A stretch of 64,000 bases of DNA from Labia minor (Eukaryota; Arthropoda; Insecta; Dermaptera; Spongiphoridae). The DNA lies in assembly GCA_963082975.1 (NCBI GenBank), contig OY720344.1, forward strand, positions 69,158,546-69,222,545. The letters run 5' to 3'. The notes under the pieces are model-generated. The model worked only from the letters and a program-made list of their open reading frames with translations. It was not told where the DNA came from and ran no database searches. Both the position numbers and the translations under genes were made by a program. Shown here piece by piece: positions 6,001 to 9,000 of this stretch (positions are counted from its first letter, which is position 1; the number at the start of each line of letters is the position of its first letter).

Positions 6001-9000
6001 TCTCATTTAATTGTTAGCATGAAGAATATTTACTTTAGTCAATGTTGCTTTAAATATTTTTCTGTGTCGTAATCTTTCATTTTTGTTAAAAAAAATAACT
6101 ATTTTTATTTAGAAACTGATAAAAAATAAAACTATTTCGAATTTAATGTTTTATATTATAAATTATATTTAATACTCACTATTATTGTTAAACTATATTC
6201 TCACAAACAAAAAAAATTGATAGGTATATAATAAAAATATATTTCCTTGCATATCTGAAGCATACGTTTTCCTGGATTGTTAATAATCTGTTTGTTTCAA
6301 TGTTTTGTGTTGATTTTTATTTTAATACGAAAAATTACATTTTATGTATTGATGTTTATTGGTTTGAATGATTGGAAAATTGACTTTTAATTAAAAAAAT
6401 ATATTTTTTCTTAATTTTATGTATAATTTTTGAAACATAAAAAATTCAATTTTTCAAAAATTTTTTATGCTTTCTTTCTGAATTTTATAATAAAAAAGGT
6501 AAGTGTTATTTTTATTTTCAAGGATGAGTAAATTATTAAATTTGTATCTTTTTTTTTATTTTTATTTATTTATTTGTTAACCTATTTGAAACATTTTTAT
6601 TTAATTGTAATAATCGTTAATTATCATTTTTCTTCGTTAACCTATTCTTGAATTAATACACTTTTTTCTTGAATTTATCATCGTATACGTTTCATATCCT
6701 GTGTGGTGTACTGTAGTTAGCCGAATGTGTTGTTATTGCTCTAGTCATCATCTAGGCCTAATGATGATCTCCTCGGCACTAATTACTGTGATGTGGCGCA
6801 GGGCGTTTCGGCTAACAGTGCATGTACTTCGGCTGTCTCTCAAGGGGGGGACAAGGACAATAATGCGGGCGCTGGGGGGTCGAATAAGGGCTGGCGAAGT
6901 CTAGACTTGGGGCCCCATGCACCTACGCCTCCGGCAAAGCCTCTCTTCCGCACGCAACGCTCCTCGTCTGTGCCCGCCCCTAAAAATGTGACAGCCCCCA
7001 CCGAAACTGTAGGCAAAGTAAGCTTTAAGAGAAACAGCAATAGACATCGATTGGTCTGTCTAGACATACATTGGATTAAAAAAGGCAAATTTCTATAACT
7101 ATTATTGAACAAATTATTGTTTTATCTTTATCTAATTAATATATATATTATTATTATTATTTTTATAATATGATTATATATTTACTAACAGAAAATCAAC
7201 TTTCATTTTCACTATCATTAATTTTTTTTATTTGAAAAAAGAATCAAATGATATATTTCTCATTTTATTTACATATAAATGATTTTTAATAGTTCCATAT
7301 ACGGTATTATATATTATTAATATATTAAAATTAATTAATTAATATATATATATATAGTAATATTATATAAAATTATTTAATAATAAAATTCATTTATATG
7401 TATGTGAATAAAAAGAGAAATATACCACTTGATTCTTTTTTCAAATAAAAAAAAATTGAATGATAGTAAAAATGAAATTTAATTTTCTGTTAGTAAATAT
7501 ATAATTATATTATAAAAATAAAAAAAGAATCGATATCTATAATATTAGTATACATGTTTAGATACATTCTATGTGAAAGGTTAAAAGATTAATCCAATGT
7601 TTGATTTGACAATCCTCTGCTTACTTATTTTACTAATTCATTTTCACACCTAACAGTTGGATGAAAACATGGGCATCGTTCTTTCACTCTCTCACTATCT
7701 CTTGATTATCTCTTTCAAACTTTCTAGATGATAGATTTCTTCTCAGACGTTGGACCCTACGCGTTTCTAAACTTTTATCTTACAAGGCATGTTCGGTGCA
7801 ACCATCTTTTTTATTTTTTAAGGAATGATGGATGATAATAATGACATGTTTATGTCTGTTATTTGTTCTTGTCCTGCTTGCTTGCCTGCGAACACACCTG
7901 TCTTAGGTTGCTAGAGTTCTCTTCAAAACGCAGCGCTCTTTCTCCGTGCCGACCACAAAAGAGCAAAAAGAGGAACAGGATTTAGATCCAAAGGTAAGGA
8001 TCTTTATATGCTGCTGCAGAGAGATTAGAATAAATTATTTAAATTCGACCAAAATTAAAATTCGTAGTTCTTGAAATTTTATTTCAGTTTATTAAGAATC
8101 GATATTAATTAAAATTATTGTTTAACTATATGAATTATAAAAATTTAACGATTATTATAAATATAAATTTCAAAAATAAAGTAAAGTAAAATATTAATTC
8201 AAGTTAAAATAATTAATTAAAGTCATCTCTCTAATATGATTTCTTTATTAATCAAAAAATATTTAATACTACACATTTTTGAAAATTAGATTCATAATCT
8301 ACTTAAAAATATTAAATAATTGAAATAATTTAAATCACAACATCTTATTATTAAGAATTACTATTTAATGAAAATAAATGAAATATATATCTTAATTTCA
8401 ATAATATTTATTACACTTTATTATTATTATTATTTAGAATAAGCATCTTTTGATCAAATATTTTAATTAAAATAAAACAAAGTAAGAGTACGTATATTTT
8501 CAAAAATAATTTGACACTATTATTACATAAATTATTAAATAAAATTGACTATTATATAAAGCCATCCTCATTTACAGTATATTTACTTCTTTGAAATTAT
8601 ATCCGCCTACTTACTTATTTATCAATTTTTAAATTATTTAATACTTTTGCATGTATAATCTTAATGCATGTTTTAATAGTTTTTTTTTGTTTTGTTTCAA
8701 GTATAGAATAATATGTATGATTTTTAAAATTAACATAAAAATTAATAAATTGATCAAATAATTCATTTCGATTTTATTATCACTTGTTTTAAGCCGGCCC
8801 ACACATGCGGTGTTTGTCAAATATCAAGCAAAACATTTGGAAAACACCGAATATGCGGATGGGTTGCTTGTCCTACGCTTGGGATATGCCTAGCACAAAC
8901 ATTCGAGTGCTCGCTATTTCGCTATATAAAGCGATCACAAGACAAATATTTGAGAATATTCATATCCACAATTTTAATAAATAATATTGTTTATCTAACA

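Follow-up and report, generated by a model that had tools for sequence, protein, structure and literature searches.

Two in-frame exons sharing an RSxSxP motif in the neurofibromin gene of Labia minor: candidate optional 14-3-3-docking linkers

The neurofibromin gene (NF1) of Labia minor contains two neighbouring in-frame exons, here called A and B, which encode near-copies of one short motif and lie in the serine-rich loop just before the conserved C-terminal block. The reading preferred here is that both are genuine NF1 coding exons which arose by partial exon duplication and may serve as optional 14-3-3-docking linkers; taken jointly, and judged from the sequence, this account is given about an even chance. 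The DNA analysed (the window) is a stretch of 64,000 nucleotides from contig OY720344.1 (positions 69,158,546 to 69,222,545 of the forward strand), in a genome of 604 Mb and 71 contigs with a GC content of 0.258 (220 kb sampled). The features under discussion are collected in Table 1.

Table 1. Features of the NF1 linker region, in window coordinates
Feature	Coordinates	Strand	Description
Exon before the cassettes	5213..5470	+	initial part of the serine-rich loop (RRQKSWDLL); phase 0 at its end
Exon A	6745..7017	+	273 nt, 91 aa, phase 0-0, GC 57%
Motif segment of exon A	6943..6975	+	RSxSxP at 6958-6975
Intronic foldback	7068..7600 (core 7129-7552)	+	predicted hairpin between A and B
Exon B	7907..7993	+	87 nt, 29 aa, phase 0-0, GC 46%
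Motif segment of exon B	7919..7951	+	RSxSxP at 7934-7951
Exon after the cassettes, conserved C-terminal block	10504..10706	+	phmmer match to human neurofibromin
RVSVSN	10516..10533	+	aligns to human KVSVSE (S2576, S2578, isoform I)

The 3' part of NF1 occupies the first 12 kb of the window on the plus strand. On the same strand of the contig, two matches to the RasGAP domain (PF00616; E 7.0e-6 and 7.5e-4) lie 1.6-2.1 kb before the window begins, and the exon following A and B matches human neurofibromin (phmmer E 4.4e-21), which together confirm the gene identity proposed in a preliminary description of this DNA. Searches of prokaryote and viral collections with the same C-terminal exon gave 150 and 20 pattern matches, respectively, none of which was confirmed. 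The NF1 exon set (21 exons, A and B among them) was drawn by hand and eye from the sequence; when joined, these exons contain no stop in one frame, as against 138 and 79 in the other two. The preliminary description had also delimited A and B, assigned them phase 0 on both sides and placed them just before the conserved C-terminal block, and was correct on coordinates, frame and phase, while the human match of the following exon bears out the placement. Phase 0 is common to the junctions at 5470, A, B and 10504, so that each of A and B can be included or left out independently of the other. The suggestion that they are alternative linkers is plausible, but the sequence enforces no choice between the two: both exons have GT-AG sites, both lengths are multiples of three and the intron between them measures 889 nt.

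Splice sites were scored with matrices built from the 19 other exons of NF1 only, whose leave-one-out ranges serve for comparison. The donors at 7017 (6.9 bits) and 7993 (8.2 bits) fall within the range of the others (2.9-12.9) and rank seventh and second, respectively, of 172 GTs in the intron, where some other GTs score equally well. The acceptors at 6745 (5.0) and 7907 (1.0) are likewise within range (-1.5 to 9.3) but rank 14th and 60th of 162 AGs, many of which score equally well. A start of exon A at 6802 was rejected: its acceptor (-7.5, rank 133 of 162) lies below the range of the 19 others, and the junction 5470-6802, which had been listed among those to be counted in RNA reads, is therefore unlikely. 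A start at 6756 was rejected as well, with an acceptor of -1.7 and an out-of-frame product. Separately, of the 172 donor-like sites in the 5-kb intron the strongest (12.1 bits) lies 5' of exon A at 6498/6499; no exon matching it was found by eye. The modest rank of the 6745 acceptor, together with the scarcity of stops in GC-rich DNA, is what would be seen if exon A were a chance open GC-rich stretch and no NF1 exon. However, only one of its six frames is open, and that in the required phase, its donor is good, and it has a motif in common with B, and the chance reading is very improbable.

The likeness of A and B centres on the common motif LF[RK]TQRS[SF]SVP, in which 9 of 11 residues and 24 of 33 nucleotides are identical. 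The BLOSUM62 local score of the two exons is 52, a value equalled by none of 20,000 shuffles. In a comparison of all 231 pairs of 22 exons (the last exon, 11990-12128, having been added; 200 shuffles per pair), A-B is the top pair, with a z of 10.2 against 5.1 for the runner-up, so that the preliminary claim of near-copies holds. The runner-up pair, 3459-3561 and 11990-12128, is serine-rich near RSF (RSFSGNSS and QRSFKGTSS), perhaps marking further phospho-sites. The A/B motif has no third copy in the six frames of the window (next ungapped score 24, compared with 53 and 55 for A and B). Searched as proteins against their own genome, neither exon has a second copy; for A the sole other match has an E of 1.42.

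Given that the motif similarity is far beyond chance, an old duplication of at least the shared segment is the simplest origin suggested by the sequence. The likeness reaches only about 17 residues, and elsewhere the exons are unalike, with A longer by 62 residues. Such a restricted likeness could also stem from convergence on a 14-3-3 site. The intron sequences next to A show no likeness to those next to B (746 upstream and 321 downstream of 1,000 shuffles are as good), and the 5 of 9 shared residues that use the same codon are no more than the amino acids and the codon usage of the gene lead one to expect (P 0.25). In favour of common descent, LF-TQ is also shared although it lies outside the 14-3-3 consensus, the protein score far exceeds the shuffles, and the DNA match is equalled in just 4 of 5,000 codon shuffles. 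All five common codons end in G or C, a result absent from 200,000 random draws that followed the codon usage of the gene; both exons are, however, GC-rich throughout, and with GC3 set at 0.75 at least five shared codons are expected with P 0.13. The DNA hence adds little to the protein match as evidence of common origin. On balance convergence is improbable, and duplication of at least a segment is retained as the preferred origin.

The cores of the two motifs, RSSSVP in A and RSFSVP in B, both match RSxSxP. This pattern occurs exactly twice in the 127,996 six-frame codons of the window, once in each exon, whereas 0.029 occurrences are expected per shuffled NF1 part. Sites of the RSXpSXP type represent 14-3-3 mode I. 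Since the central serine has Arg at -3, it could plausibly be phosphorylated by PKA or a different RxxS kinase. One source lists RSXpSXP as a consensus for 14-3-3 (PMC3046972). The preliminary description had named Ser/Arg phospho-sites in both exons but overlooked this consensus, which is their most informative part. Inclusion of both exons would place the two RSxSxP serines 29 residues from each other. RVSVS lies 23 residues from the closest cassette serine, whether one cassette is included or both, and distances of this order are suited to a 14-3-3 dimer. The fraction of residues of disordered type, a measure of composition only, is 0.81 in A and 0.76 in B. No Pfam match was obtained for the linker with the next exon or for exon A, and the PDB search gave a single irrelevant match for A (ThreeFoil, E 0.015) and none for B. 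Short serine motifs are easily over-read.

A and B lie between VSEEVRSRC and NILLD/NVLLD, which is the same loop as the human segment. Human cryo-EM work describes an S-rich region branching from C-HEAT as disordered and untraced, and calls its role in domain rearrangement unresolved (PMC8580823); the loop carrying A and B probably corresponds to this region, which the passages concerned describe without residue numbers. At the conserved site the human chain reads HPHLRKVSVSESNVLLDEEVLTD, with serines 2576, 2578 and 2580 (isoform I). RVSVS in the window aligns to the first two, thus keeping the S2576 and S2578 equivalents, but the third is not kept, its position being occupied by N. According to one review, in the passages considered, 14-3-3 binding, which lowers GAP activity, depends on phosphorylation of S2576/S2578/S2580 and also of S2813 and T2556 (PMC7692384). 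Residue 2556 is a tyrosine both by the numbering used here and in another paper (PMC7690890), so that the T2556 site must be misstated somewhere. A further review locates PKA-dependent sites in the C-terminal domain, between residues 2620 and 2818 (PMC10119308). The positions of the human 14-3-3 sites thus differ between the reviews themselves and are not settled. Compared with the human PKA/14-3-3 cluster, A and B add RSxSxP motifs, which are absent from the human loop. Neither exon resembles the human segment significantly (shuffles as good: 1,044 of 3,000 for A and 588 of 3,000 for B). For the exon preceding A, as for A and B, homology with the human loop was rejected as not significant, despite the resemblance by eye of TQRISSS to TQRSSS.

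Alternative use of coding exons in this gene has precedents. Human NF1 exon 51 (formerly 43), which encodes 41 residues with an NLS, is alternatively spliced, as stated in the sections considered of two papers (PMC7690890, PMC7692384). Like exon 51, A and B are in-frame exons in the same loop, shortly before KVSVSESNVLLDEEVLTD. Unlike A and B, exon 51 has a bipartite NLS and no RSxSxP, and no bipartite basic cluster was seen by eye in A or B. The end of human exon 51 (about residue 2559 according to a passage of PMC7690890) is 14 residues before K2574, whereas the next exon in the window starts 4 residues before RVSVS; the intron positions therefore differ. A and B thus share the loop with exon 51 but neither similarity, NLS nor intron position, and are not demonstrably its orthologues. 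In Drosophila, two Nf1 transcripts lack coding exon 14 (PMC11048932), which provides a like case of alternative coding-exon use in an insect; the portion of that text considered does not place exon 14 relative to the loop.

Base composition sets the two exons apart from the rest of the gene. Their GC content (Table 1) compares with 26-39% in the 19 other exons, and their GC3 is 0.53 (A) and 0.48 (B), as against 0.09-0.33 in the others (Fisher P 1e-11 and 5e-4). The 100-nt intron flanks have GC contents of 0.33 and 0.29 at A and of 0.34 and 0.25 at B; those of other exons (flanks of 60-100 nt) range from 0.04 to 0.20 upstream and from 0.10 to 0.23 downstream. The 273-nt exon is thus GC-rich within an AT-rich gene, as first described, but this is not a property of that exon alone: B is also raised and, because the introns flanking A and B are raised too, the effect extends beyond the coding sequence. 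Stretches of 240 nt with a GC content of at least 0.55 occur at three places in 284 kb (sampled loci plus window), exon A being one. The second such island of the window, at 55239-55788 (GC 0.58 over 240 nt), has overlapping minus-strand open reading frames and is possibly a promoter or a 5' exon. Raised GC3 and raised intron-flank GC form a pattern associated with regulated exons. The values at A and B are compatible with constrained, regulated exons, or with mutation bias.

These values bear on whether the exons are optional at all. If A and B were both constitutive, they would form a long linker with a two-copy internal repeat, their phase 0 symmetry would be a mark of the duplication, and there would be no splicing switch. 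Usable splice sites at both exons agree with this, the 889-nt intron with GT-AG throughout would permit their joining, and nothing observed requires skipping. Against it stand GC3 and intron-flank GC above those of the other exons checked, alternative splicing of human NF1 in the same loop (a passage of PMC7690890), and the resulting loop length. From VSEEVRSRC to NILLD the loop would measure 247 aa with both cassettes, as against 148 in human; it would be 127 without them, 156 with B and 218 with A. Constitutive use of both is a real, though doubtful, possibility.

The intron between A and B contains a foldback, whose arms are 81-83% identical over their gapped length (86 and 90% in ungapped blocks). 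The segment 7018-7640 has a predicted folding energy of -179.7 kcal/mol, compared with a mean of -89.1 for 20 shuffles (z -25). However, the piece overlapping most of the foldback ranks only fifth in energy among 102 consecutive 623-nt pieces of the window, so that folding of this strength does not single it out. Foldbacks of 150 nt or more are frequent: six entries come from five of the 22 10-kb loci sampled, and the window has three; among the five loci, L017 is an inverted pair around a short spacer. One foldback of the window, at 20768-21091, has a 90% identical relative at 62329-62694, 41 kb away, and is likely to belong to a repeat family. For the foldback between A and B, an origin as a dispersed mobile element was rejected: a genome search, in which 40 of 44 candidates were scored and very common words were skipped, gave 43 matches, and strong ones among these were confined to the locus itself and the arm opposite. 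The remaining 41 are short (best E 3.7e-10) and fall mostly on the AT-rich loop. The best weak matches of the arms in the sampled loci reach 43.6 and 41.7 bits, scores attained by 4 and 28 of 100 shuffled arms, respectively. The foldback is likely to be rare in the genome.

A hairpin of this kind might steer a strictly mutually exclusive, Dscam-like choice between A and B. The exons are adjacent, in the same phase and related in sequence, and they flank a predicted hairpin, about 600 nt long, at the base of which the donor of A is paired. When the partner side is shuffled, though, this donor is still predicted to pair fully in 4 of 60 trials, and differences between the arms show no excess of G-U over A-C (6 to 4 over the whole length, 1 to 4 for the core), that is, no sign of RNA-level selection; the foldback was accordingly rejected as a selected RNA structure. 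In comparison with homologous mutually exclusive pairs (Pillmann et al., 2011), A and B are alike in being neighbours, in having the same phase (0-0) and GT-AG sites and in carrying a homologous segment, albeit one of 17 residues only. They differ greatly in length, 91 vs 29 aa, where the neighbour-exon comparison of that source allowed a difference of 20 aa, and their exclusivity is putative. Moreover, joining of A to B keeps the frame, so that transcripts with both exons would escape removal. The observations do not support strict mutual exclusivity, which is very improbable; the foldback is treated here as an unexplained neighbour and not as part of the mechanism.

Several other elements were seen in the window. 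In the intron after B, 8785-9225 has inverted GCCGGC-CACACATGCGGTGTTTGTCAAATA-like ends, as judged by eye, with partial matches in two sampled loci (L032 and L017); it is possibly a small mobile element. Two 1,334-nt inverted copies (24871-26204 and 27572-28905), 99.85% identical, overlap a 772-aa frame at 26195-28513 with a reverse-transcriptase domain (PF00078, E 3.7e-16), and the region 24871-28905 resembles a recent Penelope-like insertion. On the minus strand, the open frames 21864-22148 and 23281-23589 look like exons of an insect N-acetyltransferase (Dat-like); in Pfam, the former has one match below the cut-off (DUF7695, 17.5 of 25 bits) and the latter none.

In the reading preferred here, that of optional docking linkers, a segment or a whole exon encoding LF[RK]TQRSxSVP would have been duplicated to give A and B. 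Both would encode parts of a mobile, serine-rich loop which departs from the C-terminal HEAT core and rejoins it at LLDPEVLTD, each supplying one phosphorylatable RSxSxP motif. An RxxS-directed kinase such as PKA may phosphorylate the central serine, upon which a 14-3-3 dimer could dock on that serine and on a second site, either in the other cassette or at RVSVS. The docked 14-3-3 would then restrain the GAP activity or the position of neurofibromin, an effect reported for the human C-terminal domain. Neither cassette, in or out, disturbs the reading frame, so that splicing could set the number of docking sites, giving loops with zero, one or two of them and hence setting kinase sensitivity. 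More speculatively, and rather unlikely as a whole, this would amount to a splice-set valency dial, whereby zero, one or two RSxSxP sites stand beside the older RVSVS and a tissue sets by splicing whether a 14-3-3 dimer clamps the loop bivalently, and with it the strength of cAMP/PKA feedback on Ras-GAP; the locus-specific foldback could favour A-B joining.

The acquisition of a short linear motif in a disordered linker through a duplicated exon is a known phenomenon. The duplication of a motif-bearing exon is therefore of a known kind in itself, while the A/B pair looks like a new use of it in NF1. Among the literature matches listed, which comprised titles and the starts of abstracts and left subscription papers mostly outside, no description of the A/B exons or of 14-3-3 cassettes in insect NF1 was present. 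The regulation of the C-terminal serine-rich loop of neurofibromin is poorly known. Drosophila NF1 also acts through cAMP, as noted in the passages considered of one review (PMC7692384). If the proposal is true, splicing, PKA and Ras-GAP control would be joined in one short region, and the duplicated 14-3-3 consensus cassettes would make the role of the loop directly testable, perhaps in Drosophila.
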